DNA of 64,000 bases from Actinacidiphila rubida. Its GTDB lineage: Bacteria; Actinomycetota; Actinomycetes; Streptomycetales; Streptomycetaceae. The notes beneath the pieces were generated by a model. The model ran no database searches, had not been told where the DNA came from, and worked only from the letters and a program-made list of their open reading frames with translations. Within the stretch, counting starts at the first letter, position 1. Each line of letters opens with the position of its first letter. The position numbers and the translations under genes were made by a program. Location: assembly GCF_900110255.1 (NCBI RefSeq), contig NZ_FODD01000015.1, positions 62,001-126,000 of the forward strand, in the 5' to 3' direction. Shown here in pieces: positions 25,754 through 47,683 of this stretch.

Positions 25754-25758
25754 CGGTG

Positions 25759-31161: not shown

Positions 31162-31217
31162 ATCACCAGTACAACACCCCGGAGAACAGACCAATAACTG
31201 ATCAAGGCGGGCATGGA

Positions 31218-31510: not shown

Positions 31511-31523
31511 GGAGACCAAGGCC

Positions 31524-31844: not shown

Positions 31845-32011
31845 CCGCCGCGGTGGCCCTACGGCGACGCGGGACGGGGTCTCCCGCGACACGAGACCCC
31901 GTCCGGGGCGCCGAGTACCGGCCGCCCTCTCCCAGGTCCAGGAAGACCCCGCCGGAGCCCTCGGCCCGGCTGACGATCAACCAAGGAGTGTATGAACCCA
32001 GAGGAGACATC

Positions 32012-32239
32012 GTGATCACCAGCACTCCCACCGTTGCGGTACTCATGCTGGTGCTCGACCAGTTGGGCGGTCAGCGGTCTCCCCGCGAGGTCTGGTCGTA
32101 CCTGGTGAAGGAGCTCGGGTACGCGGGCACCGTGACCGACGTGAACCAGGCCCTCCGCTCGATGGCCGATCGATGGCCGACCGTGGCCAGGCGAACGCTG
32201 GTCGGTGGCCGGGCCCTCTACTCGCTGACCGACGACTGA
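32012..32239 (+). CDS. Small winged-helix-like protein
   Basis: A 75-residue protein from GTG 32012 behind GAGGAGA (GTG 31988 is an alternative). The pattern SPREVWSYLVKELGYAGTVTDVNQALRSM then GRALYSLTDD resembles a small winged helix. No family recognised. Confidence 0.5.
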   Translation: MITSTPTVAVLMLVLDQLGGQRSPREVWSYLVKELGYAGTVTDVNQALRSMADRWPTVARRTLVGGRALYSLTDD

Positions 32240-32284
32240 CTACCGCGGGCTGGGCGCCCACCAGTCCAACACCCAAGGAGGTCT

Positions 32285-32599
32285 ATGAATGACTTCACGT
32301 TCGTCCGCGCCGACCGCGCAGCTCTGATGGTCGGGCTGTTCGTCGACGACCACGCGGTGACTGTCTCGGCGATGCCGCTGCTCGGCTACCGCCACCGCCT
32401 CGATGGCCACGCGGTGCCGGTCTTCGACGACGCGGGACGGCCCACCACTCAGGCTGAGGTCGAGGCCAACCTCTGCGGAGGCCACTTGCAAGGCGGCGGG
32501 TGCCGGAAGCTCGTGGCCCTCTACGACGCGACCGACCCCGACCAGGCGGACGCGGCATGGCGAGTAGCCGGCCAGACCCTTGACGCCATGATCAGCTGA
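32285..32599 (+). CDS. Hypothetical protein
   Basis: A 104-residue soluble protein from ATG 32285, with AAGGAGG upstream. Two cysteines (LCGGH and GGCRK) are the only notable residues. No family recognised. Confidence 0.6.
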   Translation: MNDFTFVRADRAALMVGLFVDDHAVTVSAMPLLGYRHRLDGHAVPVFDDAGRPTTQAEVEANLCGGHLQGGGCRKLVALYDATDPDQADAAWRVAGQTLDAMIS

Positions 32600-32641
32600 A
32601 ACCCCCGGTCAGGCGGGTGGCTGGGGTGCCATACTGCGCGG

Positions 32642-33463
32642 ATGGCGTTGAGGCACCTGGCCGAACTTCGGCTGTTGGCAGATGAGTTCACTGAGGCGGG
32701 CGGCTGGCCAGACGTGCCGTGTCCGGCGTGTGCCTCGGGAACACTTGCCCCCAAGGACAAGGAATCCGTTGCTGCCGAAGAATCGCGGTTGAGTCATGAG
32801 CGTTACAGCGAATGCGACGACGCCGAACCTGACTGGATCAGCGGGTACTTCCACGGATCCCTTCGGTGCACTCTTCCTTCGTGTGCGGAGAACGTCGCCG
32901 TGACGGGTGAGTTCCGAATCAGGGAAGGGGCCGGGTACAACGAGTACAACGGCATCTTGTATGGCTTCTCCTATCAAGCAAAGTGCTTCGTTCCGGCACT
33001 GCCGCTGATCCGTGAGGGGGACTCGTTTCCCCAAACGGTGAAGGACTTGCTTGTTGCCGCATCGGCGATCCTCTACCTGGACCCAAGCTCAGCGGCGAAC
33101 CGCGTTCGCGCTGCCATCGAGGAACTTCTCGATCTGCACCGTGTTCCTAGGACCTTCATATCTAAGAAGCACAAGCGCGTCCGATACACCGCGCACAAGC
33201 GCATCGAGCTGTTCAAGGAGCGGAAGCCGAAGTTCGCTGACGCCGCGGACCTGCTGATGGCCGTCAAGTGGATCGGTAACGACGGCAGCCACGGGAACGA
33301 GCTGGGCGTGGGCGATGTCCTGGACGGCGTTGAGCTGCTCAACCACGCCCTGGAGTTGACGTACGACACCAGTGCCGCTGACCTCAGGAAGAGGGCTGCG
33401 GCGATCAACAAGCATGGGGGCATCCCGCGGAAGCGTGCTGCGACCAAGGCGGGCAGGCCGTAG
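32642..33463 (+). CDS. DUF4145-like protein with two Cys pairs
   Basis: A 273-residue protein. The N-terminal half has CPACASG and CTLPSC, which could coordinate zinc. The C-terminal half (DLLVAASAILYLDPSSAANRVRAAIEELL; MAVKWIGNDGSHG) matches the DUF4145 helical pattern, a domain often attached to restriction and defence proteins. A terminator hairpin follows the stop. Confidence 0.7.
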   Translation: MALRHLAELRLLADEFTEAGGWPDVPCPACASGTLAPKDKESVAAEESRLSHERYSECDDAEPDWISGYFHGSLRCTLPSCAENVAVTGEFRIREGAGYNEYNGILYGFSYQAKCFVPALPLIREGDSFPQTVKDLLVAASAILYLDPSSAANRVRAAIEELLDLHRVPRTFISKKHKRVRYTAHKRIELFKERKPKFADAADLLMAVKWIGNDGSHGNELGVGDVLDGVELLNHALELTYDTSAADLRKRAAAINKHGGIPRKRAATKAGRP

Positions 33464-33481
33464 GAGTGCCTTAGGCACAGC

Positions 33482-33515
33482 AAGGCCACGGTGGCTGGGT
33501 GCCGACCGTGGCCTT
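33482..33515. terminator. Hairpin between convergent genes
   Basis: Arms AAGGCCACGGT (33482-33492) and ACCGTGGCCTT (33505-33515) form an 11-bp stem with a 12-base loop, between the DUF4145-like gene and the convergent gene at 33537. Confidence 0.85.
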
Positions 33516-33536
33516 CTGTGTGTGTGCTGTTGTGCG

Positions 33537-33752
33537 TTACTTCTGTGCCGGTTCCTGAACGACGATGGAAATCGTAGTTGGCTTCTCAATGGTGCCTCCA
33601 GGCGTGCTGGCTACGTGACCACTAAACGCGGTGATTGCAGCGACTACTAAGCCCAACAGGGGAGGCGTGATGCGGTCAATGGTGTTCCACCTTGCCTTCT
33701 CGGCATCGTACTTTGCTTGCTCGGCTAGATAACGAGCATCCTTCTTCGACAT
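33537..33752 (-). CDS. Small single-pass membrane protein
   Basis: A 71-residue protein from ATG 33752 with AAGGAGAG upstream. A charged helix (KKDARYLAEQAKYDAEKARW) precedes one membrane segment (PPLLGLVVAAITAFSGHVA). Function unknown. Confidence 0.55.
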   Translation of the reverse strand: MSKKDARYLAEQAKYDAEKARWNTIDRITPPLLGLVVAAITAFSGHVASTPGGTIEKPTTISIVVQEPAQK

Positions 33753-33974
33753 TCTTCTCTCCTTGTGTGATTGACAAAACTGACCTCCTTCTTGGGCAAT
33801 GCAAAGTCGACGCATCAGGCGTGATGCGTCGACCATTTCCCGTGTCTGAGTAAAATAGCGTGCGCGAGCCAGATTGTCAATGGAGGGTGGCCCGTCGGGC
33901 GCGTTATAGGAAGAGCTTATGCGTGGACCGGCTGGCCGTCAAGGAACGTCGTGAATCGGTCGTTGTGAGGGTCT

Positions 33975-34697
33975 CTATCTGGGAATGGAGCGCTCGATAG
34001 GCATTCCGTGTCTGTCGCGCGGGCTCTTCCGGTAAGACCGGCCGGGCCTTGTCGCCAGAAAGATCACCAGCAGTATGAGCGCGAGGAGTATTCCCGCAAG
34101 TGGCCACGGCACGACGAACGCTACAAGAAGGGCGGTGGTGTACAGCGAGGCAACGCCCGTTGCCCAAGTCGACCAGTGGTAGGCAGGGAGCCAGCGTGTA
34201 CCGCCGTAGAGGACCTTGCCCGTCCCGAGACGCACGCCGAAGTGGCTTCTGAGGAACTTCGCCGTGTCCGCCTTGTCCAGCTCTCTCCAGGCTTCGTGTC
34301 CAAGCAGCGCTCCGTACCTGCTCGTCAAACCGGGGAGCCCCGCCTGGCTGTCCTTCTTGTCGCTCAGAACCCACTTCACGCTGCTATTGCCTGGAAGTGT
34401 GTAGGGAAACCCTGGGTTGCTCGCAGCCCCGTCACGGGTTTGCACCCGCAAGGTGAGCCTCCGGCTGCCGGAATACCGCGGCTCTTCCACAACGTCTGCC
34501 ACGATCTCTTCGAGACTTACGGGCGAGGTGCTCTTGTTTCGTACGGTCACGCTCAGCCCGTAAGGGATGGACATTTTTACTTCGACGGACAGGTTGATGC
34601 CTGTCCTGACGAGCCCTCGGTACGTGATGACCAAGCCTGCTGAGGCTATGAGGGCGCCGTAGACGGCCAAGACCAGGTTGATCGCCGATGACGACAT
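33975..34697 (-). CDS. Membrane protein with a central soluble domain
   Basis: A 240-residue protein. One N-terminal membrane segment (INLVLAVYGALIASAGLVI), a predicted β-rich middle (SVEVKMSIPYGLSVTVRNKSTSPVSLEEI) and two hydrophobic segments near the C-terminus (LYTTALLVAFVVPWPLAGI and LALILLVIFLA) are visible. The β-rich part resembles that of the protein at 17396. Function unknown. Confidence 0.55.
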   Translation of the reverse strand: MSSSAINLVLAVYGALIASAGLVITYRGLVRTGINLSVEVKMSIPYGLSVTVRNKSTSPVSLEEIVADVVEEPRYSGSRRLTLRVQTRDGAASNPGFPYTLPGNSSVKWVLSDKKDSQAGLPGLTSRYGALLGHEAWRELDKADTAKFLRSHFGVRLGTGKVLYGGTRWLPAYHWSTWATGVASLYTTALLVAFVVPWPLAGILLALILLVIFLATRPGRSYRKSPRDRHGMPIERSIPR

Positions 34698-34864
34698 GCA
34701 TCGATCCCCGTTTGATGATTGATGCGGAGCCAGGGAAGTTGGGTCCAGAGTGTCCCACATGGCAACGGGTGTACGAGGGGGAATCGGCTGCTCTGATTAG
34801 CCTGGCAACTGCGCAACCATTGGGGCGTTTGTGGCTGGGCGACACTCGTGGGGACACGGGGGAG

Positions 34865-37207
34865 TCACAGCAGGACCGTGGCGGACGCCAGCAGGGTGGT
34901 GGGGTCGTAGAGCACCTGCTGAACACTTGCGATCTGAGGTGCTTCCGCCGGGTACACCAGCATGGCAACGTTCGAGAGGTAGGTGGTGTTGGCGGAGGTG
35001 GGCGTGCCCACGTGAGTGGGGACGATGGCCGCGAACGCTGCCCCGGCCGGCGACGTGAAGACGTTACTTACGAACGTCCAGGTTGCCGCCGGGACGGAGA
35101 CGCTATGAGACGACGTTGAAATGTAAGCCGAGCTGGCGTCGTACCAGTTGGCACTCATCGAGAACGTGGCGCCGTTGCTGGAGTACGCCCACCCGGCTAC
35201 GAGGTAGTACGCGGCGGGCGTTACGGAGAACATCTCAGATTCCACAAACGGGTTGGCGGTCGTGCCGTTGGGGGTGAGCAGGCCCGAGAACGGAAGCCCT
35301 CCGTGAGTCTGAGCGTTGGACTGGGTGATCGTGGCGCCGTTGTGACCGGTCCACGGACTGACCCCAGTGGTGAAGGTGGGGTTGACGTTGAGCGCTGCGT
35401 TGAGAACAGCGACCGAGGCGCAGTGGCCGATGATGACGCTTGGGTCACCTTGGTAGCCGGTCACCCAAGTTTGCGTTGCGGGGGAAGGAAAGTCCGGGTA
35501 GTCGCTGCTCGGTATCGCCTCCCAGGTGTGCAGAACGATGGGCGACGCGGACGTCGAGGCGTCGAACACGGACATCGGAACGGACATCCCCGCCCCAACG
35601 GAGGCCCAGGAGCCCGTGGTGTACCGGGCGTGCGTCCTGGCGGCCAGCGGTAGCGGAGTTCCGTTCAGAAGTCCGAACGCCACCGATCCCGAGTTGCTCG
35701 ACCGCGACTGCCGTATCACCACGTGGTAGGTGGTACCCGAGGTCAGGCCGCTGACGGGCAGGGGGACCGACAGGTACGGAACCGGCACCAGTTCGCTCGT
35801 GGTGTAGTACGCGATTCCGCCGGGGTTCGGGTTGATGTCCAGAACGGAGAACGTCCCGTCCTCTATGTCGAACGGCGCGACCACGTTGTTCTCTCCGCCG
35901 GTCGGGATGTGGGACAGCGTCCACTTGTCCGCCGGTCCGTCAGCGTCGACGGTGAGAACCTGCACGGCATCAGAGAAGAACATCGGGTTGGACTGGCCGC
36001 CCCAGGTGACCAGGGCGTTCGGAGTGGAGAACGTCTGACCGTTGTTGAAGGACGCGAACGGCAACGGCATGTCCGGCGCCTGCTTCCAGGGTCCCAGCGA
36101 GCCGTCCGAGTTGATCCCGGCGTAATAGACTTCGGTGCGCACAGTGCCGCTCTGGTCCGACCCGCCCGCAACGACCATCCAGTTGCCGATAACGGCCATC
36201 GCCGGACTGATCACGGCAATCGGCAGGTTACCCTGTGCCACCCAGCTGCCTACCTGGCCGTTACTTATGCTGGCCTTCCAGACTTTCTTCTGGACGTTGA
36301 CGCTTATGTCCTCGCCGCCAGCGATGTACACGAAGCTGTCGTTGTAGGTGACGCTGGCGTGCAGCGCGATGGCTGCCGGGATGGGCGTTTGAGAACTCCA
36401 CGCCCCGATGACTCCGGTGTTGGGGTCCCAACTCGCCGTCCAGGTGTTGGTGAGCCCCCCGGTAGATCCGACAGTCGGGGTGTAGTTGCCGCCGGTAAAG
36501 ATGACCGTGTCCGACGTTACGGCCAAAGCTCCGTCCTGGGCTGGCTGGGGCAGCGACGGCTGGGCCACCGGGGGCGAGACCGTCGAGCTGTCGATCGCCG
36601 CCGTTACGACGACCCCGGTCGAGGGGTGGCTGGTAACTGTCGCGTCGTACCCGCCGACGAAGATCACGTTGTTGCCAGCCACGCAGGTTTGCGGGTGGGT
36701 GGACGTGCCGTTCGAACCACCGGCCTGTACCGCCCACGGCTGCTGCGCGCTGATGCCGGTAGCGGCGTACATGACGTTGTTCGACGGTTTGGCCAGCGGC
36801 CCGGCGTCGGCCAGACCGAACGGCGCAGACAAGGCGTTGATCTGCTGCGCGGGTATCAGCGTCGACGCCAAGGCTCCGGCTGCCAAGTTGGGGGACCCTC
36901 CGCTATCGGTGTACAGGCTCACGTGAACGTCGGCTGCGTCCCCCGACGGCAGCATCGGCAGGACCACCCGGCCGATGGCCGTGCTGCCCGCAGGCATGAC
37001 AAACGGTTGGTCCAGGTCGTTGTTATCGCCGTAGTTCGTCCAGGTGAAGGACAAGCCCCCTCCGGGCGTGACGATCGCGTTGCCCTGGTACAGGACGTTG
37101 AACTTGTGGGTCCCGAGTTCCTGGCCGACCTGCGCGGCTGTCATAGTCGCGTTGAGGTCGCCGGCCAGGCCGTTCTGGGCGGCTGACGAAGGCGGCGGGG
37201 TTGGCAT
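34865..37207 (-). CDS. Kelch-like, phage-tail-type adhesin protein
   Basis: A 780-residue protein from ATG 37207 behind GGAGG. The N-terminus (TWTNYGDNNDLDQPFVMPAG) resembles actinophage minor tail proteins. Residues 150-450 contain about five kelch-like blades marked by GG pairs (VIFVGGYDA, VIFTGGNYT, VYIAGGED, MVVAGGSDQ, LVTWGGQ). The C-terminus, from about residue 615, looks like a carbohydrate-binding β-sandwich (NPTFTTGVSPWTGHNG ... NTTYLSNVAMLVYP). There is no signal peptide, which fits a phage structural or receptor-binding protein rather than a secreted one. Confidence 0.6.
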   Translation of the reverse strand: MPTPPPSSAAQNGLAGDLNATMTAAQVGQELGTHKFNVLYQGNAIVTPGGGLSFTWTNYGDNNDLDQPFVMPAGSTAIGRVVLPMLPSGDAADVHVSLYTDSGGSPNLAAGALASTLIPAQQINALSAPFGLADAGPLAKPSNNVMYAATGISAQQPWAVQAGGSNGTSTHPQTCVAGNNVIFVGGYDATVTSHPSTGVVVTAAIDSSTVSPPVAQPSLPQPAQDGALAVTSDTVIFTGGNYTPTVGSTGGLTNTWTASWDPNTGVIGAWSSQTPIPAAIALHASVTYNDSFVYIAGGEDISVNVQKKVWKASISNGQVGSWVAQGNLPIAVISPAMAVIGNWMVVAGGSDQSGTVRTEVYYAGINSDGSLGPWKQAPDMPLPFASFNNGQTFSTPNALVTWGGQSNPMFFSDAVQVLTVDADGPADKWTLSHIPTGGENNVVAPFDIEDGTFSVLDINPNPGGIAYYTTSELVPVPYLSVPLPVSGLTSGTTYHVVIRQSRSSNSGSVAFGLLNGTPLPLAARTHARYTTGSWASVGAGMSVPMSVFDASTSASPIVLHTWEAIPSSDYPDFPSPATQTWVTGYQGDPSVIIGHCASVAVLNAALNVNPTFTTGVSPWTGHNGATITQSNAQTHGGLPFSGLLTPNGTTANPFVESEMFSVTPAAYYLVAGWAYSSNGATFSMSANWYDASSAYISTSSHSVSVPAATWTFVSNVFTSPAGAAFAAIVPTHVGTPTSANTTYLSNVAMLVYPAEAPQIASVQQVLYDPTTLLASATVLL

Positions 37208-37235
37208 TGGTGAACCTCCATCGGTAGTCAAGGAG

Positions 37236-37307
37236 GCGGCCCCCACCGGAAGGAGTCGGTGGGGGCCGCATAAACCCGCGCCCGTGGCTGCGACGGCCGG
37301 GCGCGGG
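37236..37307 (-). terminator. Two consecutive hairpins
   Basis: Stem 1 has arms 37236-37248 and 37257-37269 (13 bp); stem 2 has arms 37275-37284 and 37298-37307 (10 bp). They lie between the stop of the coiled-coil gene and the start of the tail-like gene, and probably end or attenuate transcription from the former. Confidence 0.75.
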
Positions 37308-37310
37308 GGC

Positions 37311-38168
37311 TTACCGGCCGCTGAGTGGCGGCTGGACGGGCATGAAGATCTGGCCCGCGTCGGCGGGGCGCAGGGAGTGACCCGGCTTGGGCAGGAGGCG
37401 TTCCTTCCGGGCGTCGAGGATCTCGGTCTGGAGCTTCTCGCGACCCTGCCGGACGTACTTGCGGTCCAGTCCGAGCGTTCTGGCGAACCCATCCACGGCG
37501 CCTTCGACCGCAGCGAGCCTGTCGTCCGTCAGAGGCGCCGCGCCCGACGTGTGGTTAGAGAGCCTCCTGGCCCAGTCGATAAGGATCGTGGCATCAGACA
37601 CGGTCACCGTGGCGTCGGCGTTGCTCAGCGCGTCCTGCGCCGCCTTGGCGTCACTCCTGGTCGACTTCACCGCCTCATGCGCCAAGGCGAGGACCGTCTG
37701 GGCGTTCTGCCGGACACCCCGCGCATTCTCGACGACGGCTCGGCGACGGGCGGTCACCTCGCGGGCCGCATTGAGCCGGATGATGGTGTCGGTCTGGACG
37801 GCGGGGTCGGCGTCCTCCAGACGGGCGACCTCCTCGGCCTCCGCAGCCTGGCGCTCGTGCTCGACTGCCTCGGCCAGCCGGTCCTCCGCCGCCCGCTCGT
37901 CGACGAGGGCAGTCTTCACGGCGTCCGACGCCGGGTCTACGGCAGTCATGGCGGCGGCCAGCCGCTCGTGTGCCTCCTCCACGGCGCCCCTGAGGCTGGC
38001 CTCGTGATCCAGGAGGTCGGCCTGGTCCAAGAGGTCGCTGGCCTCCTTCTGTTTCACCACAGCCGCCGCTCTCAGCAACGTGGCCTTCGTATCGTCGGGC
38101 TCGTTGGCGACCGCAGCCATGAAGGCGGTGAGCGCCTGGTTCGGCTCGACGGGGGTGGGCTCGGTCAT
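37311..38168 (-). CDS. Coiled-coil protein of the phage-like block
   Basis: A 285-residue, Ala/Glu-rich, almost wholly helical protein (for example AEAVEHERQAAEAEEVARLED and QTDTIIRLNAAREVTARRR). ATG 38168 follows GGGAG. Such proteins in phage tail regions can be scaffolds or tail-assembly factors, but the role here is only inferred from its neighbours. Confidence 0.55.
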   Translation of the reverse strand: MTEPTPVEPNQALTAFMAAVANEPDDTKATLLRAAAVVKQKEASDLLDQADLLDHEASLRGAVEEAHERLAAAMTAVDPASDAVKTALVDERAAEDRLAEAVEHERQAAEAEEVARLEDADPAVQTDTIIRLNAAREVTARRRAVVENARGVRQNAQTVLALAHEAVKSTRSDAKAAQDALSNADATVTVSDATILIDWARRLSNHTSGAAPLTDDRLAAVEGAVDGFARTLGLDRKYVRQGREKLQTEILDARKERLLPKPGHSLRPADAGQIFMPVQPPLSGR

Positions 38169-38169
38169 G

Positions 38170-38601
38170 TCAGGCTCCCGAGATCGGTGCGGTGTGGAAA
38201 GGCGGCTGAGCGGGGACGGGGACGGCCGTCGGGACGACCCCTGTAGACGTTCGGTAGTCGAGGTGCTGGACCTGTGCGGTCCCACCGTTGTTGCTGATCG
38301 ATGACGCCGACGCCTGGCCGGTCGTGGTGGTGGTGAGGGACGCCTGCGGCTGCGGGTTCGGCGCGGTGGCCTGTGCCGGGTAGACCTGGGTACGGCGTAC
38401 GCCGTGAGTCGCGATCGCCTCGGTGATGGGCCCGTACCCGACCCGGGCGCCGACGTGAGGCATTGCGCCCTGCCGGGGCACCGCGTCGTTCTGCACGGCG
38501 TCGGAGGCGTGGCCGGCGATGTTGCCCAGGGACTCGCGTTGCGGTCCGAACGCCTTCTCGGCCTGCTCTCGGATCGCTCGCTGGGTGACGAGACCGAACA
38601 T
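38170..38601 (-). CDS. Hypothetical protein of the phage-like block
   Basis: A 143-residue protein. The N-terminus MFGLVTQRAIREQAEKAFG is helical and the C-terminal half is Thr/Ser/Gln/Pro-rich (SLTTTTTGQASASSI). It ends 1 base before the start of the coiled-coil gene, so they are co-transcribed. Confidence 0.55.
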   Translation of the reverse strand: MFGLVTQRAIREQAEKAFGPQRESLGNIAGHASDAVQNDAVPRQGAMPHVGARVGYGPITEAIATHGVRRTQVYPAQATAPNPQPQASLTTTTTGQASASSISNNGGTAQVQHLDYRTSTGVVPTAVPVPAQPPFHTAPISGA

Positions 38602-38603
38602 GG

Positions 38604-38840
38604 TCACCGGCCCTTCGTGACGGTCGGGCCGAGGGCGGCCTTGTAGATCAGGTCCTGAGCCAGCTCCCGCTCTGCGGGGTCGCTGCTGTACGGGTCCAGC
38701 ACCGGGCCGACCACGGTCGGTGTGTCCGGCACGTGGGCCTTGATGACGGTTCCCGGCAGGGCCGCGCCGCACGAGGTGCAGAACGCTGCGCCAGCCTTCT
38801 TCGACTTTCCGCATCCGTGAATGCACTTGATGCCGCTCAT
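38604..38840 (-). CDS. Small zinc-ribbon protein
   Basis: A 78-residue protein with an N-terminal zinc ribbon, CIHGCGKSKKAGAAFCTSCG (C-x3-C then C-x2-C), and a short helical end. ATG 38840 follows AGAGGAG. It begins a minus-strand transcript of four phage-like genes. Confidence 0.65.
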   Translation of the reverse strand: MSGIKCIHGCGKSKKAGAAFCTSCGAALPGTVIKAHVPDTPTVVGPVLDPYSSDPAERELAQDLIYKAALGPTVTKGR

Positions 38841-38848
38841 ACGCTCCT

Positions 38849-39097
38849 CTATTTGCCGTGTTCGATCTCGTACAGAATGTTCTTCAGTGAACGGCCCATC
38901 AGTAGCTGCTCTGTCCTGATGTTCTTCACGGCGGCCCGGGTGAGGAACAACAGACGTCCACTCGGAAATTCTGTTTGACCGCTCTCCCATCTCGACACTG
39001 TCGACGGTGGGCAACCGATCCGCTTGGCTAGCTCCCTCTGGGAGATTCCGAGTTGCAGCCTGGTCGAGCGAATACTTGATCCGAATGTTTCGGCCAT
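38849..39097 (-). CDS. XRE-family regulator (left arm of a divergent pair)
   Basis: An 82-residue helix-turn-helix protein (ISQRELAKRIGCPPSTVSRWESG). It faces away from the XRE gene at 39285 across a 187-base control region with palindromic operators. The arrangement resembles a cI/cro-type switch. Confidence 0.85.
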   Translation of the reverse strand: MAETFGSSIRSTRLQLGISQRELAKRIGCPPSTVSRWESGQTEFPSGRLLFLTRAAVKNIRTEQLLMGRSLKNILYEIEHGK

Positions 39098-39131
39098 CTG
39101 TCCTCCCGATAGCCCCAGAAAAGCACGGGGT

Positions 39132-39165
39132 GTTGCGCCAGCGCAACATTTGCGTTTTGCGCAAG
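39132..39165. promoter_or_regulatory. Palindromic operators between the divergent XRE genes
   Basis: TGTTGCGC-CA-GCGCAACA (39132-39149) is a perfect inverted repeat, and TTGCGCAA (39158-39165) is a second palindrome with the same half-site, TTGCGC; another half-site TTGCG lies at 39151-39155. Confidence 0.75.
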
Positions 39166-39284
39166 TAGAGCGGTACGACCCCCAGGGAAGCGTCTAACTT
39201 CCTGGCGGGGGATGCGCGCTGCTGTAATTGGTATAGCAAGCAGCGGCGGTTCGTTCTGCTGCCATCGGTTACAGGAGTTCGTTT

Positions 39285-39497
39285 GTGACACTCAAATTCT
39301 CACCCGAGGAACTGCGCCGAATTCGGGAGTCCAAGGGGATGACACAGCAGGCCCTGGGCGACGCCTACGGCCGACCGGCGTCGATCAACGCCTACGAACG
39401 GGGCAGGAACACCCCCGGCCTCGCCAGCATCGGACGGCTGGCCAAGGTCCTTGGCGTTCCGTACACCGCCCTCATCGTCGACACCGACCAGGTTTAG
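39285..39497 (+). CDS. XRE-family regulator (right arm of a divergent pair)
   Basis: A 70-residue helix-turn-helix protein (MTQQALGDAYGRPASINAYERGR) from GTG 39285 behind AGGAG. It leads into the transfer module and probably helps to control it. Confidence 0.85.
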   Translation: MTLKFSPEELRRIRESKGMTQQALGDAYGRPASINAYERGRNTPGLASIGRLAKVLGVPYTALIVDTDQV

Positions 39498-39504
39498 GGA
39501 GTCT

Positions 39505-39981
39505 GTGGCCGAGATCGAAGGCGAGGAATGGCGCCCGATACCGGGCTACGACGGGCTGTACGACGTGAGCAACCTGGGGCGGATCAGATCGTGGAGCAGG
39601 GCTAAAGATGGGGACTTGCTCAAATTCATCATTGGCCACCGCGGGTATCCGCAAGTGAACTTGTACTGCGACGGTCGCGTAAAAACGCGTAGGGTGCCGC
39701 AATTGGTGCTGGAGGCGTTCGTAGGACCTCGGCCCGCCGGGACTGTGGCCTGCTATGGCGACGGCATCAAGGGGAATGTTGCTCTGAGCAACTTGAGGTG
39801 GGACACAGCCAAGGCCAATGGATTGGAGATATCTCGCCAGGGCCGACACCCGGAATCCAAGCGGACTCACTGCGATAAGGGTCACGAGTACAGCGAGGCC
39901 AACACGAAGTGGATAGCCACGGCGCGATCTGGGGCTCGCAGGCCTAGGTGTCTCATCTGTAAGCCGCTGCCCAAGGACTGA
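39505..39981 (+). CDS. NUMOD4/HNH homing-type endonuclease
   Basis: A 158-residue protein from GTG 39505 behind GGGAG. The opening EEWRPIPGYDGLYDVSNLGRIRS is the NUMOD4 DNA-binding motif. The following region keeps the HNH-like order with NVALSNLRWDT, but the central His-Asn pair is not clear (it reads VACYGDGIKGN where H.D...KDN is expected), so catalysis is doubtful. A C-terminal Cys/His set (HCDKGHEYSEAN, RCLICKP) may bind zinc. Confidence 0.75.
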   Translation: MAEIEGEEWRPIPGYDGLYDVSNLGRIRSWSRAKDGDLLKFIIGHRGYPQVNLYCDGRVKTRRVPQLVLEAFVGPRPAGTVACYGDGIKGNVALSNLRWDTAKANGLEISRQGRHPESKRTHCDKGHEYSEANTKWIATARSGARRPRCLICKPLPKD

Positions 39982-39992
39982 GAAACGGATCA

Positions 39993-40030
39993 GCCGCCCC
40001 GGCCCATCACTCACGAGAAACCGGGACGGC
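39993..40030 (+). terminator. Imperfect hairpin before the transfer genes
   Basis: GCCGCCCCGG (39993-40002) pairs with CCGGGACGGC (40021-40030) with one mismatch around an 18-base loop. It may separate the HNH gene from the transfer operon. Confidence 0.5.
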
Positions 40031-40051
40031 CTCACACAGAAAGCAAAACAG

Positions 40052-40255
40052 GTGAGTAGTGCAGCTGTAAATAGCGAGACCCGCGCCGCAGCCGAGCTGG
40101 TGGCCGCAGGGGGAGAGCGAGCAATGCGGTTCATGAGCGGGCGCAACCTCAGCCGCAGCAACCGCCCCGGCTGGCGGCACGCCGACGCCATGAACGCCGT
40201 GGCCGGCCAGATCGACGTAACCGCCGTGGTGCAGATGCGCCGCCGCACCTACTGA
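40052..40255 (+). CDS. Small basic protein preceding the SpdB-like gene
   Basis: A 67-residue basic protein from GTG 40052, ending 20 bases before the DUF2637 gene. Small proteins of this size precede spd genes in other streptomycete elements. Function unknown. Confidence 0.55.
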   Translation: MSSAAVNSETRAAAELVAAGGERAMRFMSGRNLSRSNRPGWRHADAMNAVAGQIDVTAVVQMRRRTY

Positions 40256-40275
40256 GCAGCGGAGGAAGTGAACCC

Positions 40276-41262
40276 ATGAAGCACAAGACGCGCACCGAGC
40301 ACTACGAAGAGTCGTTCACCGTGGACGGCAAGACGCACACGATTCCGAAGACGCGCGAGGTGAAGGTGCCCGCCGTCCCGCGTGACTTCGACGCCACGGT
40401 CCTCAGCACGGTCACGAGGGTCACCTGCCTGGTGGTCGTCGCCGCCATGGTGTGGTCGACCGTGAGCATCGGTTCGATGCTGAGCCAAGTGGCGCCCACC
40501 TGGACCGCCTACATGATCGCGGGGGTCTTCGACCTGGCCTGGATCTCGGCCCTGGCGGTGGAGTGGCTCAGCCGGTACCAGCCCAACAAGGCCAAGTTCC
40601 CGAAGGCGGTGGGCTGGGCCGCCCTCGCGGTGTCCATCGCGGCGATCTTCGCCCACGGCCTGCTGGCCCACCAGCCGGTCGCCGGGGCTGTCGGTGCGGT
40701 GATCTCGGCCCTCGCCAAGGTGATGTGGATGCTGGTGATGCGCCACACCGCCAAGGCCCTGACGCCCGACCAACAGGCGTGGGTGGACGCCGAGATGTCC
40801 GAGGCGAACGCGCTGCTCGCGGTGACCGTCGCTCGCCGCCAGGTGGCCAGGGTCCGGGCTCGTGCGGCTGATGAGCTGGCCGCTCTGGAGTTCGGCCGGG
40901 CTGACTACCAGGTGAGCCAGGCGCCGCCCACCCCGGCCGAGTCTGCTGAAGCTGCCGACGAGACGGAACGTGAGCAGAACCCGGTTCCGGTGCTCCGTTC
41001 CGTGGGGGAGAACTCGGTTCCGGAACCGAGTTCCGCCGAAGTTCCGGTGGCGGAACCTGGGGCGGCTCCGGTGCCGGTCGTGGCGGTTCCGTCCGGCCGG
41101 AACTTCGGTTCCGACATCGGTTCTCGCACGGAACTCCTGAACAACCTGATCAACGGCGGAGTAACCGACCTGGCGGAACTGCGGAACCAGGTGCGGGATG
41201 CCGGGTTCACCGCCCCCTCGGACAGCTACATCCGCCGACTGGTGCGCGGGGTGGCCAAGTGA
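40276..41262 (+). CDS. DUF2637 / SpdB-like membrane protein
   Basis: A 328-residue protein. Residues 45-160 hold about four hydrophobic segments typical of DUF2637 (VTCLVVVAAMVWSTVSIG, WTAYMIAGVFDLAWISALAV, GWAALAVSIAAIFAHGLLA, AGAVGAVISALAKVMWMLVM). A cytoplasmic C-terminus ends in a short helical domain. SpdB proteins help spread plasmids between hyphal compartments after TraB transfer. Residues 230-305 are encoded by a segment loaded with GTTCCG/CGGAAC hexamers. Confidence 0.82.
   Translation: MKHKTRTEHYEESFTVDGKTHTIPKTREVKVPAVPRDFDATVLSTVTRVTCLVVVAAMVWSTVSIGSMLSQVAPTWTAYMIAGVFDLAWISALAVEWLSRYQPNKAKFPKAVGWAALAVSIAAIFAHGLLAHQPVAGAVGAVISALAKVMWMLVMRHTAKALTPDQQAWVDAEMSEANALLAVTVARRQVARVRARAADELAALEFGRADYQVSQAPPTPAESAEAADETEREQNPVPVLRSVGENSVPEPSSAEVPVAEPGAAPVPVVAVPSGRNFGSDIGSRTELLNNLINGGVTDLAELRNQVRDAGFTAPSDSYIRRLVRGVAK
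40964..41187. repeat. Fourteen GTTCCG/CGGAAC hexamers inside the SpdB-like gene
   Basis: Copies begin at 40964, 40984, 40997, 41017, 41021, 41030, 41041, 41051, 41086, 41098, 41108, 41129, 41174 and 41182. Several spacings are 10-13 or 20-21 bases. The Val codon GTT, rare in such GC-rich genes, is used repeatedly, which suggests selection on DNA sequence. Confidence 0.85.
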
Positions 41263-41516
41263 GCGCCGACAAGATCGCAAGCGAGCTGATGACGAACGAC
41301 GAGGTATCCGAGCGGCTGCAGAAGCTTGAGGAGCGGCTGGACCAGGCGAACATACGGGCTGCCTGGAACCGGTACCTGAGGGCGCTCGCCGCGATGGTGT
41401 TGGCCGCGTCAGGCACGGCTGGGGACCTGGCGGCATGTCGGAGCACAGCGGGCGACGCTCCGCACGATGGTCCGCCTCCTTCGTCCCCGCCCCTGGCAGC
41501 GCCCACCGGTCCCTAG
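41259..41516 (+). CDS. Small protein between spd and tra genes
   Basis: An 85-residue protein from GTG 41259, overlapping the SpdB-like stop by 4 bases. An N-terminal coiled-coil-like helix (MTNDEVSERLQKLEERLDQANI) is followed by a moderately hydrophobic stretch and a Pro-rich end. Function unknown. Confidence 0.6.
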   Translation: MSADKIASELMTNDEVSERLQKLEERLDQANIRAAWNRYLRALAAMVLAASGTAGDLAACRSTAGDAPHDGPPPSSPPLAAPTGP

Positions 41517-41522
41517 CCCCGG

Positions 41523-41555
41523 GAGCACCCCGTCCTCAAATGGGACGGGGTGCTC
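41523..41555 (+). terminator. 13-bp hairpin upstream of the translocase gene
   Basis: Arms GAGCACCCCGTCC (41523-41535) and GGACGGGGTGCTC (41543-41555) flank a 7-base loop. It lies between the spd operon and the translocase gene. Confidence 0.85.
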
Positions 41556-41655
41556 CTCAAATGCCCAGTACGGCCCCGGGCACCGTGCCCGCCCCCCGTC
41601 CGCCAGGCGCTCCGGAGTACCGCCGGAGCCCATGGCCTGCCCAACAGGAGACCCA

Positions 41656-43458
41656 GTGGCAGCGCACGACTGGTCGGCCCAGCACCGGACCGACCTGATA
41701 ACGACCCTCGTCCCCTCAACTGCGGTGACCGGCCTCGCCCTTGCTACCAACATGCAATACGGAGACACCGCGGCTGCTCTCGAACTCGTCGCGGCCGTCG
41801 CGTCCGGCTCGGTCTGCCTCGCCAGCTTCTCCAAGAGCTGGTCCGACGCGCTGTCGTGGGGCGCCGCAGCGGCCACGCTGGCGCTCGGGCAGGCCACCGC
41901 CACCACGTTTGCCGGGGCGGCCTGGCCCACTGCGTACGCGTGGGTGGCGGCCTCGGCGGCTGCCCTCGGCGCCCGGCTGGTCTACCGGCACCGGACCCGG
42001 CACGACGACCACGCCCGGGAGCTGGCCAAGCTGACCCTGTCCGCGAAGCACACCGCCCTGGAGACCGCCAGGCTCCGCCAGCAGATGGCGCTGCACCAGC
42101 TCATCAACGCCACCGGGAACGCCGAGCCGGCCATCAACCTCAAGGGCCTTACTCCGGAAGAGACGGCGATCCGGGAGGTCGTGCACGAGCTGTACAAGCG
42201 CGAGTTGCCGGGCGCGGCGGTGGAGCGCTCGGCCACCGGCTGGACCGCCGTACTGGACCTGCCCACCGGCCTGGACCCGGACAAGGTCATCCGGGAGTGG
42301 CCCCGCGTAGCGGCGGGCCTGGCGCTGCCCGGGGAGTTCGACCTGGCCAAGGGTGCTCTGTCGAGCCAGGTAGTCGCGCGATACCTGGACGGAGACCCGC
42401 TGGCGGCCCTCGTGGAGTACACAGCCACGGGTGCGGAGGCGTTCACGGACCCGGTGGTCCTGGGCGTGGACAAGTTCGGGGCCACGGCCGACGTCGAGCT
42501 GGCCTACAACCACACCCTCATTGCCGGGAGCAGCAAGTTCGGGAAGTCGAACATCACGAAGCTCATCGCCCTCCGGCTCGCGGCCCTGCCGGACACCGTC
42601 CTGTACGGCGTCGACATGAAGCCCGGCGCACCGGAGTTGTCGCTCCTGCGGCCGATCCTGCACGACCTGGCCACCAACCCCGAGCAGGCTCACGCCATGT
42701 TCGGCTGGCTCACCGAGGAGATGGAGGAGCGCGGCGCCATCCTGAAGGAGGCCGGTGACACCCGGTGGGACCCCCGAAGCCACGGACGTCCCGCCGTGTT
42801 CGTCATCGTGGACGAGCTGGCCGAGCTGGTGCGCCAGGGCGACAACGTGGCCAAGGGCGAGACGAAGATCAGCACGCGGGTCGAGTCGCTGCTGGCGCTG
42901 GCGCGGGCCTACGGGATCCACCTGATCCTGGCTACACAGCAGCCGTCCAACAGGGTGTTCGGGAAGACCACCGACCCTCGCGGCAACCTCACGGTTCGGA
43001 TCTCGGTTCGGATGAACGACCGGGGCCACGGTCAGTTCGTGTTTTCCAGCTCGAAGTGGGTGCCGGGCGACCTGGACGCCCCAGGCAAGTTCCTCATGCA
43101 GTCGCCGGACCACAACCGCCCGGCGCAGTACAAGGCGCAGTTCGTCAGCGATGAGGTGGCGGCCAGCGAGGTGGCCAGGCTCGGGCGAGAGCTGGTCCCG
43201 GCGCCCACCGGCAAGCGCCTGATCCTGCCCGCGCAGGACGGGCTCAACAACCAGGAAAGCGTGCGAGACCGCCTCAAGCACTACGGCCTGATGACCCGCC
43301 GCGAGTTGGAGGCCGGAACCGGCTTGACCGATAAGCAAGTCCTGAGGGCGTGCCAAGAAATGGCGGACGTGGAGCGGGACGAAGAGACCAACACGTGGCG
43401 CCTGGCGGTACTCCCGGGGGCTCCGTGGGGAGTCCGCGCGGTGGCAGCCACGGAGTAG
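41656..43458 (+). CDS. traB: FtsK/SpoIIIE-type conjugative DNA translocase (TraB-like)
   Basis: A 600-residue protein from GTG 41656 behind ACAGGAG. Hydrophobic segments in the first 120 residues anchor it in the membrane. A Walker A (GSSKFGKS) is near residue 292 and a Walker B (AVFVIVDELAEL) near residue 380. The C-terminus (HYGLMTRRELEAGTGLTDKQVLRA) looks like a winged helix, comparable to the FtsK γ domain. TraB proteins move double-stranded DNA between mycelial cells as hexamers, guided by short repeats. A strong terminator follows. Confidence 0.88.
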   Translation: MAAHDWSAQHRTDLITTLVPSTAVTGLALATNMQYGDTAAALELVAAVASGSVCLASFSKSWSDALSWGAAAATLALGQATATTFAGAAWPTAYAWVAASAAALGARLVYRHRTRHDDHARELAKLTLSAKHTALETARLRQQMALHQLINATGNAEPAINLKGLTPEETAIREVVHELYKRELPGAAVERSATGWTAVLDLPTGLDPDKVIREWPRVAAGLALPGEFDLAKGALSSQVVARYLDGDPLAALVEYTATGAEAFTDPVVLGVDKFGATADVELAYNHTLIAGSSKFGKSNITKLIALRLAALPDTVLYGVDMKPGAPELSLLRPILHDLATNPEQAHAMFGWLTEEMEERGAILKEAGDTRWDPRSHGRPAVFVIVDELAELVRQGDNVAKGETKISTRVESLLALARAYGIHLILATQQPSNRVFGKTTDPRGNLTVRISVRMNDRGHGQFVFSSSKWVPGDLDAPGKFLMQSPDHNRPAQYKAQFVSDEVAASEVARLGRELVPAPTGKRLILPAQDGLNNQESVRDRLKHYGLMTRRELEAGTGLTDKQVLRACQEMADVERDEETNTWRLAVLPGAPWGVRAVAATE

Positions 43459-43473
43459 CTCCCTGGCCGGTGG

Positions 43474-43504
43474 GAGGGGGTGCGAGACCCGCTCGCACCC
43501 CCTC
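43474..43504 (+). terminator. 13-bp hairpin after traB
   Basis: Arms 43474-43486 and 43492-43504 are perfectly complementary around ACCCG, 15 bases after the traB stop. Confidence 0.88.
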
Positions 43505-43575
43505 TCGGCATTTCGGGGCAGGAGCTGAATTACGAGAGGGCTGGTCATTCCCGGCGAGAGTGGGTGCGAGACCCG
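43478..43575. repeat. 14-base direct repeat downstream of traB
   Basis: GGGTGCGAGACCCG occurs at 43478-43491 and 43562-43575. The GACCCG part resembles the GACCCGGA repeats bound by TraB of pSVH1, as I recall them, so a transfer locus is possible. The rest of 43505-43663 is AT-rich and probably carries the promoter of the next gene. Confidence 0.55.
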
Positions 43576-43663
43576 TTTCGCATAAACGAAATAATTGTGC
43601 CAATAATTCCCAGAATGTTTTAATTGGAATTACCGGGAAAACGGGACTAGAAGGGGATTAGAA

Positions 43664-44191
43664 ATGGCCGTCGAGAACTCCACGCAGACCGAGTCCAACC
43701 GCTGCGCGTGCAGTCGTTACAGCGTCCTTGTCAACGTCCGCGAGGACGATCGTGGCGACCTGGTCTGGGACGACGAGCTGACCACCGGCTGCACCGCCAC
43801 CGCCCGCAAGACGTTCGCCCAGGGCCACGACGCAAAGCTCAAGAGCCACCTGATCAAGTGGGGTGCTGCGGGCTACGAGGTCCGCGTGGAGGACGGGGCC
43901 ATGATGACCACCGCCGACGCCGTCACCATGGCTCGCGACTACGGATTCGGTGACAAGGTCGCCGCCGGTATCGCTCGCGCCACCGCCAAGATCCAGGCCA
44001 AGGCAGACCGAGCAGCCAAGAAGGCTGCCCCGGCGCCCGGCGACGACCCCCAGGACGCCACCGCTGAGCCCCAGACCGTCACCGCCAAGGTCGGCCGGTG
44101 GGAGCGGGAGGGGGTCGTGGACGGCGACACCTTCACCTACACCGACAGCAAGGGCGAGACCCAGACCACGACGACGTTCACCCTCGTCTGA
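43664..44191 (+). CDS. Hypothetical protein of the transfer module
   Basis: A 175-residue protein from ATG 43664, preceded by AGAAGGGG and an AT-rich promoter-like region. An αβ N-terminal domain with Cys residues (NRCACSRYSVLVNV, DDELTTGCTA) leads to a Lys/Ala-rich helix and a short β-rich end (KVGRWEREGVVDGDTFTY). It has its own terminator. No family recognised. Confidence 0.6.
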   Translation: MAVENSTQTESNRCACSRYSVLVNVREDDRGDLVWDDELTTGCTATARKTFAQGHDAKLKSHLIKWGAAGYEVRVEDGAMMTTADAVTMARDYGFGDKVAAGIARATAKIQAKADRAAKKAAPAPGDDPQDATAEPQTVTAKVGRWEREGVVDGDTFTYTDSKGETQTTTTFTLV

Positions 44192-44203
44192 CCCGACCGC
44201 GCC

Positions 44204-44230
44204 GCGCCCCCGCCATCGTGGCGGGGGCGC
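44204..44230 (+). terminator. 11-bp hairpin before the integrase gene
   Basis: Arms GCGCCCCCGCC (44204-44214) and GGCGGGGGCGC (44220-44230) flank ATCGT, between the hypothetical gene and int. Confidence 0.85.
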
Positions 44231-44252
44231 TTCTGACTGAACAGGAATCTCA

Positions 44253-46529
44253 ATGACGAAGCGCGTGGCAGTCCTCGAACGGGTGTCGACTGAGGAGCAG
44301 GTGAACGGCTACGGCCTGGAAGTCCAGGACACGGCATGCATGGCATACGTCAAGCAGAAGGGCTGGACGCTCCACGACGTCTACAAGGACGAGGGCGTGT
44401 CCGGGTCGCGAACCAGCCGGCCAGGGTTCGACCGCCTGATGGAGGATGCAAAGGCAGGCAAGATCGATGTTGTCGTGGTCCACAAGTTCGACCGCGTAGG
44501 CCGCACGGGGCGGGCCTTCTGGCGCTGGATCTGGCAGCTCGAAGACCTCGAAATCGCGATCGTGTCCGTCACGCAAGAGATCGACACCACGACCACGCAC
44601 GGCAAGCTCATGCTCCAGCAGTACGCGGCGTTCGCCGAGCTTGAGTACAACCTGATCCGCGAGCGGACCCAGGCCGGGTTGCAGGCGAAGGCCAACGCGG
44701 GCGGGTGGCTCGGCGGCCAGCCCCCGTACGGCTACCGCATTGAGGGGAAGGGCAAGCGCGGGTCGGTGCTGATCATCGACGAGCACGAGGCGAGGGTCCT
44801 CAGGCTCATGTGGTCGATGGCTGTAGGTGAGGCGCTGAACACCCGCGAGATGGCATCCCGGCTCAATGCGCAGGAGTTGTACACCCGGTCGGGTGTGCCG
44901 TGGTCGCACACCAACCTTCGCGCCAAGCTCCTCGCCGACTCCACCACAAAGGCGATCGTGACCTTCAGGAACCCGAACCGCTCGAAGGCCGGGCATGGCG
45001 CCAAGCTCAACAAGGACGGCCTCCCGAAGCACGGCGAGTCGGTGGTCATCCCTTTGGCGCCGATCTTCACGCCTGAGGAGGTGGCCGACCTCGTGCGGGC
45101 CATGGGGCGCCTCGCCAACGGTGCCCCGAAGTCGAAGCCCTACGGGTACCCGCTCTCGAAGCGCCTCTTCAACGCGTGCGGCGGTCACTACGTCGGCATG
45201 AAGCGGACCGGCCGGCCAGGGCGCTGGTATCGCTGCTCGGGCAAGGCGCCTCGCTGGCCGGGCGGCCCCCAGTGCGACTGCGACGCGGTCGACGCCGACG
45301 CGATCGAGGTCGCCGTCTGGTGCGAGGTGGTGAAGCTGCTCGGAGATCCTGACCGGCTCCAGGCGATGGCCGCCGAATGGATCGGCATGACAGCAGGCGA
45401 TCAAACCAGCCACGCCGACCGCATTGGTGACCTTGATCGTCAGATCGTGGACCGTCAGAAGGCGCTGGCCACGATGGTCGTCGACTACGCCAAGGCTGGT
45501 CTTCCGGCGGTGACCGTCCAGGCCGCGACCCGCGCCCTCACGGAGGAACTCGATCAGCTTCGGGCGATGCGGGCCGAGGCCGCTTCGTGGCTGGCGGAGA
45601 CTGAGGCGGCGGACCAGCGCGCTAAGGACCTCCAGGCGCTGGCCCTGGTCGCGCGGGAACGACTGCACGACATGACCCCAGACGAGCAGGGCGAGATCCT
45701 GGCCCTGCTCGACGTCAAGGTGACGATCACCGGCCCGGTGCCGAGGCCACGACTCGGCGCAGCCTGCTCCCTGACTCAGTCGTTCCGCGACGCCGGGCGG
45801 CTGGTGCCCGACGAGCTGACCGACAACGAGTGGGCAGCTGTCGAGCCGATGGTCAAGGCGTGGGAACCCGCCGCGCACCGCTTGCTGCCGGGCCGGGACG
45901 TGGTGAACGCACTCCTATACAAGGCGCGCACCGGGATTCGGTGGCGGGACATGCCCGAACGGTTCGGGAACGGCAGCTCGATCCACAGCCGGTACAAGCG
46001 GTGGGCTGACGACGGCACCTGGTCCTGCATCCTCGACGCGCTACCCCGGGAGGGTGTCCCGGCCCACGTCCCGAACCTGGTTCCACCCCTTCGTGTAGAG
46101 GGGAGAGTCGATCCGCGAATGGTGGCCGGGACCCAGGCGGACACCCGCGGAATGGGCGTTCCCGGTCCCTGCACCAGCGGTCTGTCGGCGGGGGTGCACG
46201 AACTCCTGCGCGGGGAGGCGGTGGTGGTCACCGACGCCGCGGAGGTCGTCGAAATGGTCGGCGAGATCGGCGCCGACCTGGCACCGGTCCGACGCGGGCA
46301 CGCCCTGCCGCGCGACGGTCTGGCCCCCGCCGCGGCCCGCGTGCTGGAGGCCCTGCCGGGACGCGGGGAGGCGACCGTCGAGGCACTGTCGGCGGCCGCC
46401 GGAGCCGCCGTCCCCGACACGCTCGGAAGGCTCCACGAATTGCGCGCCCTGGGGTTCGTCGAGCACACCGAGACCGGCTGGGCGTTGGTCCGTACCGCTG
46501 ACGGAGGGGGGACGGGGCGGGTCTGTTGA
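44253..46529 (+). CDS. int: Large serine integrase, fused in frame to the DprA C-terminus
   Basis: A 758-residue frame. Residues 1-150 are a resolvase domain with catalytic Ser12 (LERVSTEEQ) and [11 protein letters not shown]; a recombinase domain ([28 protein letters not shown]) follows, then a zinc-ribbon region with several Cys (FNACGG ... YRCSGK ... CDCDAVD) and a coiled coil. Residues 515-590 resemble the DUF4096/IS5 transposase N-terminal domain ([32 protein letters not shown]). The attachment core is codons 634-637; from codon 638 the sequence is host DprA. In the excised circle the protein would end after 653 residues with the tail now found at attL. Confidence 0.93.
46152..46163. repeat. 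attR core
   Basis: ATGGGCGTTCCC, identical to attL at 10466-10477, in the same reading frame (Met-Gly-Val-Pro) in integrase, DprA and the reconstructed intact dprA. Confidence 0.93.
46164..46529 (+). pseudogene. dprA: DprA, 3' part
   Basis: Residues following the core ([18 protein letters not shown]) continue the DprA motif broken at 10477. The end of this part ([23 protein letters not shown] ... [20 protein letters not shown]) is the winged-helix domain typical of DprA C-termini. It has no start of its own and is read only as the tail of the integrase. It ends at TGA 46527-46529. Confidence 0.95.
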
Positions 46530-46849
46530 CGCTATGGACACACCATCAGGTGACAGGAAAACGCCGTGACCAGGGGGGATTCCGGAAGCTGCCGGAACGG
46601 CCGCGTGAGACCCGGATGATGGCCCACACGACCGCAACCCTGCACCCGTCCGGAAACCCTCCCCGGACCCGCTCGACCCTCGTACGCAGAGGAACGTATC
46701 TGCGCATGTCCCAGACCGATGACGTAGCAGCCAGCGACGCCACGGTCACGCTACGCTCGCGGAGGCTCGACTCCACGGCCGCACCCACCCGTACGCGATC
46801 GGCCCGCCCCCGATCGGCCACGACACCCCAGAACGGCTCTCCACGACGC
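46530..46849. other. Region before whiG without a supported gene
   Basis: These 320 bases separate the dprA remnant from whiG. An open frame crosses them in phase with whiG but lacks conserved content, so they are taken as the whiG leader and promoter region. No clear motif was found. Confidence 0.5.
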
Positions 46850-47683
46850 ATGCCCCAGTACACCCCCGGGACCGGAAGGACGACGGCAGCGACCGCCGCC
46901 CGCGCCACCGCTCGGCCCGCCGCCCCCACGTCCCTGGACGCGCTGTGGCGGAGCTACAAGGCCACGGGGGACAAGCGGCTGCGCGAGCAGCTGATCCTGC
47001 ACTACTCGCCTCTCGTGAAGTACGTGGCGGGACGGGTGAGCGTGGGCCTGCCGGCCAACGTGGAACAGGCCGATTTCGTCTCCTCCGGCGTCTTCGGGCT
47101 CATCGACGCCATCGAGAAGTTCGACCCCGACCGCGCGATCAAGTTCGAGACGTACGCGATCACCCGGATCCGCGGCGCGATGATCGACGAACTGCGCGCC
47201 CTGGACTGGATCCCGCGGTCGGTGCGGCAGAAGGCGCGCGCGGTGGAGCGCGCCTACGCCACTCTCGAGGCGACGCTGCGCCGCACCCCCACCGAGCCCG
47301 AGGTCGCCGCCGAGATGGGCGTGCCGCTGGAGGAGCTGCACGGGGTGTTCAGCGCGCTGTCCCTGGCGAACGTGGTCGCCCTGGAGGAACTGCTGCACGT
47401 CGGGGTCGAGGGCGACCGGCTCAGCCTGGTCGACACCCTGGAGGACACCGGCGCCGACAACCCCGTCGAGGTCGCCGAGGACCGCGAGCTGCGCCGTCTG
47501 CTGGCGCGGGCCGTCAACACGCTGCCCGAGCGGGAGAAGACCGTGGTGACCCTCTACTACTACGAGGGCCTGACGCTCGCCGAGATCGGGCAGGTCCTCG
47601 GCGTCACCGAGAGCCGGGTCAGCCAGATCCACACCAAGTCCGTCCTCCAACTCCGGGCAAAGCTGGCGGACGTGGGCCGCTGA
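46850..47683 (+). CDS. whiG: Sporulation sigma factor WhiG
   Basis: A 277-residue FliA-type sigma factor that starts spore formation in aerial hyphae and activates whiH and whiI. The regions are complete: region 2 ([65 protein letters not shown] split here) and region 4 ([20 protein letters not shown], then a helix-turn-helix [12 protein letters not shown]). ATG 46850 begins the conserved MPQ start. The organism is therefore a sporulating streptomycete or relative. Confidence 0.96.

Follow-up and report, generated by a model that had tools for sequence, protein, structure and literature searches.

Judging from sequence comparison, a clade of large serine integrases in actinobacteria has its attachment site, attP, within the 3'-terminal coding part of the integrase gene, int, and integration would exchange the C-terminus of the enzyme; we give this reading a probability of roughly 0.86. 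Joined sequences indicate the arrangement for 15 of the 55 int copies that were read. The member with which we begin belongs to an element integrated in dprA, within the 64-kb stretch of DNA analysed here (hereafter 'the window'), for which the relevant features are as follows.

44253..46151, + strand: element-encoded part of int, 633 codons, a large serine recombinase (Pfam Resolvase at residues 10-152)
45816..46031, + strand: DUF4096 (IS5-transposase-like) domain of int (Pfam)
46083..46118, + strand: 12-residue motif, the last conserved int segment ahead of the core (comparison with relatives)
46152..46163, + strand: attR core, ATGGGCGTTCCC, in phase with both int and dprA
46164..46529, + strand: 3' part of host dprA, appended to int (translation, joined forms)
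44253..46529, + strand: chimeric chromosomal reading frame, int plus DprA C-terminus, 758 aa; homologous chimeras in two further loci (L009, L010)
9605..10465, + strand: 5' part of host dprA, 287 codons (PF02481; TIGR00732 match)
10466..10477, + strand: attL core, ATGGGCGTTCCC (core repeat search)
10478..10528, + strand: tail codons of int (TPMPTRSIRFRMDLVA) with their TAG, which continue DprA in the chromosome and int in the circle
10478..46151, no strand assigned: integrated element, about 35.7 kb between the cores, putatively AICE-like by gene content

An earlier, sequence-only reading of this DNA had int passing through the core in phase and on into host DprA, and the translation agrees with it base for base: the frame at 44253-46529 has no internal stop, and hence none ahead of 46152, yields 758 aa and closes with TGA at 46527-46529. 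At 46152 the core ATG falls on int codon 634, with 633 codons ahead of it; at attL it is dprA codon 288, from which 20 codons, four of the shared core and 16 of the element only, lead to the TAG at 10526-10528. Rebuilding the join at the core gives the circle form of int that this reading had expected, 653 aa with the C-terminal end MGVPTPMPTRSIRFRMDLVA, and an empty-site DprA of 412 aa; residues 2-403 of the latter, junction included, align at 74% over 405 columns (three gap positions) with the uninterrupted DprA of a congeneric genome. The element has a short common core at both ends, and the empty site exists in relatives (intact dprA in G027). In the 64-kb window, ATGGGCGTTCCC occurs exactly twice (10466-10477 and 46152-46163), and allowing one mismatch adds no further place; in the shuffle control, with one mismatch allowed, the mean was 0.57 places and two places were reached in 7 of 100 shuffles. 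The 5' part of dprA scores 183.4 bits with TIGR00732 against a cut-off of 191.15, as expected because the gene is cut.

By domain order, int is a large serine recombinase with predicted recombinase activity. Its serine catalytic domain (Resolvase, residues 10-152, E 9.4e-41) stays whole on integration; an unusual, IS5-transposase-related DUF4096 domain occupies residues 522-593, and Zn_ribbon_recom (301-356, 24.6 bits vs 25.3) and Recombinase (177-224, 16.5 vs 21.1) match below their Pfam cut-offs. The other genes of the element include an FtsK_SpoIIIE translocase (41467-43458), a Prim-Pol protein (28010-30823) and an HTH plus DUF5753 protein (15981-16829), and a match to the TraB model lies far below its cut-off; judged by these genes, the element resembles an integrative conjugative element more than a phage. 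Relatives in dprA and PNKP with both ends on one contig span about 12-14 kb, compared with 35.7 kb in the window. The window element also holds a nuclease-like run at 20090-25380, possibly a defence cluster (HNH 20090-21466, PIN_12 22258-23673, MazG/PRA-PH 23731-24165, Mrr_cat 24376-25380), a reading frame adjoining attL with a CyanoTRADDas_TM (TRADD-N associated two-transmembrane) domain (10562-11236) and an 875-aa reading frame on the minus strand with a kelch-repeat match under the Pfam cut-off (34865-37492).

The read-through past the core is unremarkable in length, because all three phases downstream of it are open for more than 110 codons (121, 134 and 111) in this GC-rich DNA, and the agreement in phase between int and dprA, taken alone, is a 1-in-3 event. 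What comparison with relatives places beyond chance is the conserved tail across the core and its phase with int.

Matches to int at E 1e-90 were found in 37 of 394 genomes of the family, the window's own included, and at E 1e-120 in 19 of 392 genomes of one genus, the two genome draws overlapping. Of eight matching loci in a named collection, those of Streptomyces sp. AcH 505 and S. pacificus are int fused in phase to DprA and match over almost all of the 758 aa, and the other six match the DprA part only. The window's integrase had no match at 1e-60 among plasmids and none among viral contigs. The 55 int copies with a 3' end that was read include the window's; 15 were joined at attP and 40 were not, and one locus (L112, G675) was dropped because its coordinates and tail mark it as a duplicate of the L010 genome. 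The int tree holds 54 of the 55 copies, the partial one of G327 being left out, and on it nine YccF labels besides G115 were assigned solely by likeness of the int end. An exact-repeat search for cores gave no clear answer in most of 20 sequences, because the cores are short, and host-gene homology was used in its place; by this means attL was located for nine dprA relatives and both PNKP cases independently of phase, with attL and attR on different contigs in G222 and G436. A hidden Markov model of the tail found, beyond its own training tails, only that of G241, the joining of which was not counted, since its core rests on a 6-base match.

All 15 rebuilt circle forms run in phase from int via the core into the tail, a count in which phase formed part of the search for attL in the YccF and DUF6421 elements and the twelve dprA and PNKP cases are free of that bias. 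The 15 comprise ten elements in dprA (the window's and the nine relatives located by homology to the dprA 5' part), two in PNKP, one in YccF and two in DUF6421, and the same tail motif follows the core in different host genes. The motif is SIRFR or PIRFR at dprA, IPFRIM at PNKP and F.FEIA in Janus-type phages. At dprA the tails read SIRFRMDLVA (window), SIRFRMELV (G436), PIRFRVAIAA (G347, G222, G536), PIRFRLAIAA (G395, G417), PIRFRLDHAAA (G167) and PIRFRMDRVAA (G394), and in the tenth element, G286, the DprA frame at attL gives an unrelated reading and a different frame gives PLRFRLQTAA.

The R-F-R of the tail is kept in ten of ten dprA elements, and its variation is synonymous only: the first Arg is written with five codons (CGA, CGC, CGG, AGG, AGA), the Phe with one (TTC) and the second Arg with three (CGG, CGC, AGG), first-position C-to-A changes among them. 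The two shortest dprA tails lack four whole codons. Together, the purely synonymous variation and the loss of whole codons point to a protein-level constraint on the motif. Outside I-R-F-R the tail appears loose: over the eight tail codons compared, 72 differing pairs were synonymous and 124 were not, which is overall only somewhat better than the 194 synonymous to 526 non-synonymous for random single changes. In G286, DprA stands in phase 2 to int at attR, and int in the chromosome stops 638 residues from the match start, while the circle form still reaches the tail, which has stayed in phase with int. The element has thus lost the host phase and kept the tail phase, which argues that the int-tail frame is what is kept and that the int-DprA phase is dispensable; selection seems to keep the circle form of int.

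Elsewhere, the extension that int receives in the chromosome varies from a few residues to about 600. In G171 and G267, the break in PNKP lies near model residue 250, with TIGR04075 pieces to either side, and int continues in phase into the 600 residues that are left, giving fused frames of 1254 and 1233 residues from the match start, and the tail at attL is VSRGVIPFRIMVPTG or VSRGIIPFRIMVAA. By Pfam name, in-phase continuations seen at attR only lead into an AMP-binding enzyme (G252, G462), a cytochrome P450 (G136, G172b) and an MFS transporter (G519). A dihydropyrimidinase-like target, named by eye and without confirmation from Pfam, is sense and out of phase, and the DUF4191 (G027), CoA-binding (G120) and YccF (G115) genes run antisense to int; in the YccF element the tail, SPIRFRLTLA, sits 8.9 kb upstream of int. 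Because the chromosomal extensions are arbitrary and some targets are antisense, the DprA fusion looks like a tolerated by-product.

Phages provide a comparison of the two states. Seven of ten free Streptomyces phages (Janus, Hank144, phiScoe1, Triumph, Spernnie, Diane and Animus) have an uncut int in which STKGIR is followed, after a short link, by FEFEI and the last few residues, and the other three (phiHau3, BroPlease and Nishikigoi) carry other tails. Among IMG/VR contigs, a set that shares some phages with the free-phage set, 32 were found and 30 read, two partial genes (L199, L206) having been left out before the count: 23 of the 30 show STKGI followed by F.FEI, one of these genes being truncated where its contig stops, and five have phiHau3- or Nishikigoi-type ends. 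Two further contigs (L180 and L194), which end at the int stop and bear the swapped ends STQGITRAEAERAAA and STKGITGAGLVGSAA, are taken as prophages, and L194 may be the prophage of G014. In the prophages of G024 and G014 the shared stretch measures 18 and 20 bases, int at attR ends in STKGITGDSPVRSAA or STKGITGAGLVGSAA, and the phage tail (FRFEIADKPQT or FKFEIADTQQA) closes a gene at attL, DUF6421 in G024; the last codons of DUF6421 are probably what forms the new int ends. On these sequences, free genomes show an uncut int and prophages a swapped end.

The tail codons and their surroundings also contain candidate signals for the 3' end of the transcript.

10488..10523, + strand: 16-bp perfect hairpin in the tail codons, predicted 3' end signal of int in the circle
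10551..10591, + strand: second inverted repeat, with 11-bp arms, downstream of the tail (inverted-repeat search)
46706..47683, + strand: whiG sigma factor gene, next after dprA and on the strand of int (NF004935 WhiG, 429 bits, cut-off 343)

Folded as RNA, the hairpin of the window reaches -40.7 kcal/mol, against -18.9 in shuffles (z -7.55); a terminator scan requiring a T-run found none near attL of the window. Within the 150-base stretch at the tail stop, a 50-base hairpin beating all 40 shuffles is present on 10 of 16 attL sides, the near-identical G347 and G536 both among the ten, and on 0 of 16 attR sides; it is absent at G167, G436 and G286 and weak at G171, G115 and G014. The hairpin was considered as the main conserved feature and kept as a secondary observation, since G436, short-tailed like the window element, lacks one and most others have theirs past the stop. 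With its stop and hairpin beyond the core, int may leave its transcript end behind on integrating, and the broken host gene may gain a predicted 3' signal. In the window, whiG, which encodes a sporulation sigma factor, directly follows dprA, and an int transcript without its own 3' end could run towards it.

We propose that, in the circle or virion, int reads across the core into a conserved C-terminal tail, about 15-25 residues long, often with a strong hairpin close behind that would end the int transcript. Site-specific integration would then sever this end: at attL the interrupted host gene would receive the tail together with its stop codon and hairpin, and at attR int would continue into host DNA up to the first stop. 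The integrase present before integration and that made from the integrated element would accordingly differ in their C-termini, both presumably being produced as protein. The tail would work only before integration, most likely serving the unintegrated state, with its replacement tolerated and the DprA-tailed form most likely a by-product; excision would presumably fall to the tail-less enzyme together with a directionality factor. The C-terminal swap suggested by the sequence-only reading is therefore retained in a wider form, with attP inside the int frame and the C-terminus, the stop codon and often a 3' hairpin exchanged, on the strength of 14 relatives besides the window and of free phages compared with prophages; a state-dependent change of the integrase is supported, and a functional switch is predicted at most. 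Structure predictions were of low confidence and were not used as evidence (mean pLDDT 67 for an intact phage integrase, its last two blocks about 45 and 39 and its tail low-confidence, and 49 for the fusion form).

Such a switch is an explanation that we advance tentatively: attP x attB recombination, or the stability of int, would depend on the tail, and losing it would leave integration effectively one-way for as long as no directionality factor acts. It would account for the tail motif being kept over dprA, PNKP, YccF and phage members, though every integration removes the tail, and for the consistent difference between free and prophage forms of the Janus type. However, conservation of the tail in the circle does not establish that its loss matters, and with the chromosomal ends being arbitrary, any effect would come from the loss of the tail and not from the gain of DprA. 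A further reading, which we find doubtful, would make one gene the source of two enzymes, one for integration and one for excision: the tailed form of the circle or virion performs attP x attB recombination, the tail-less or host-tailed form of the integrated gene cannot repeat it, and directionality is written into the DNA rearrangement, besides any directionality factor.

Alternatively, the tail could be an ssrA-like degradation tag that renders int unstable in the circle and stable once integrated, the truncated DprA inheriting the tag. The ends of the dprA-element tails invite this idea (AA in eight of ten and LVA in the window, nine of ten together), as does the host tmRNA tag, which ends in FALAA; moreover, the repressor of mycobacteriophage BPs loses such a tag on integration, and the BPs integrase also has a C-terminal proteolysis signal (PMC4557955). 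The explanation is nevertheless unlikely: the G436 tail ends in ELV and that of G171 in PTG, Janus-type free forms end in KAS, KTA, KSA, TVA, STR and the like, with AA in 0 of the 23 contigs read, the Janus prophage forms end in SAA or AAA, the reverse of what a tag predicts, and conservation is centred on I.FR and not on the final residues.

That the DprA-tailed integrase, or the phase with the host gene, is itself selected is quite improbable and is not borne out by the relatives. In its favour, int and DprA are in phase in nine of ten dprA elements, and the identified sense targets are in phase (dprA, PNKP, P450, AMP-binding, MFS and DUF6421), with the dihydropyrimidinase-like one out. However, the dprA elements are related and nine of ten are not nine events, G286 has lost the phase, the YccF, DUF4191 and CoA-binding targets are antisense, and in-phase targets are the easiest to recognise among many unresolved ones, the P450, AMP-binding and MFS cases having been seen at attR only. 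A frame plot of host phase at attR ranked the right frame first in just 4 of 10 known dprA cases and was not applied to the unresolved targets. Finally, a coincidence, in which a single element lost its int stop by mutation and the open frame is meaningless, would suit the three long open phases past the core and is extremely improbable given the same architecture and conserved tail in relatives down to about 30% identity to the window integrase, and in free phages.

An attP exchange of the kind favoured here, with the end of the integrase itself replaced, has partial parallels. In phage lambda, int is subject to retroregulation by sib, a 3' signal that lies beyond attP and is parted from int by integration; the likeness is the int 3' signal across attP, whereas lambda int keeps its own stop and protein sequence and belongs to another enzyme family. 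In BPs-type phages and Mycobacterium abscessus prophages, the attP core lies in the repressor gene, with viral and prophage C-termini that differ (PMC4557955, PMC8092301, PMC9934374); nine M. abscessus systems use tyrosine integrases (PMC8092301), and the prophage repressor product is typically the shorter. The BPs type is thus alike in having the attP core inside a coding sequence and a C-terminus changed on integration, but the gene there is the immunity repressor, whereas here it is a serine integrase itself that has its end replaced by host-encoded residues. Archaeal suicidal tyrosine integrases (SSV1, pTN3, pT26-2) have attP inside the integrase gene, which is split on integration, and are said to be exclusive to archaea (PMC8371274). 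They share the location of attP within the integrase gene, but theirs split off the catalytic C-terminal part, whereas the present enzyme loses only its last tail and keeps its N-terminal catalytic domain and the bulk of the protein whole. The Streptomyces phage phiJoe likewise has a large serine recombinase with attP beside int, 18 bp upstream, attP being usually adjacent to int according to that report (PMC5311408); unlike the present case, the phiJoe protein is unchanged. One candidate prior report of attP within or at the end of an integrase gene (PMC6511857) was rejected, as it describes an engineered circuit that is unrelated. Among the papers listed by full-text searches of the open literature, which excludes subscription journals and preprints, none described a serine integrase with its own end exchanged.

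The directionality of serine integrases is a live question both in phage biology and for genome-editing tools, and this clade, whose members would shed a conserved part of the enzyme on integrating, would supply two natural forms that can be compared for the role of that part. The clade would constitute a bacterial, milder counterpart of the archaeal suicidal integrases. For genome mining, caution is advisable, as integrase genes of this clade mined from integrated copies would carry a foreign C-terminus.

Two additional loci deserve mention. In G287 (L045), the int end resembles the P450 junction (FETTVNLIGG) and continues with DAYPLP and a stop, with no P450 reading after it, and could represent an uncut attP; on the tree it lies closest to L170 (G347b). 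In G120 (L058, L059), on a contig other than that of the int copy, dprA appears split near residue 187 by about 6 kb, perhaps by another insertion in dprA.
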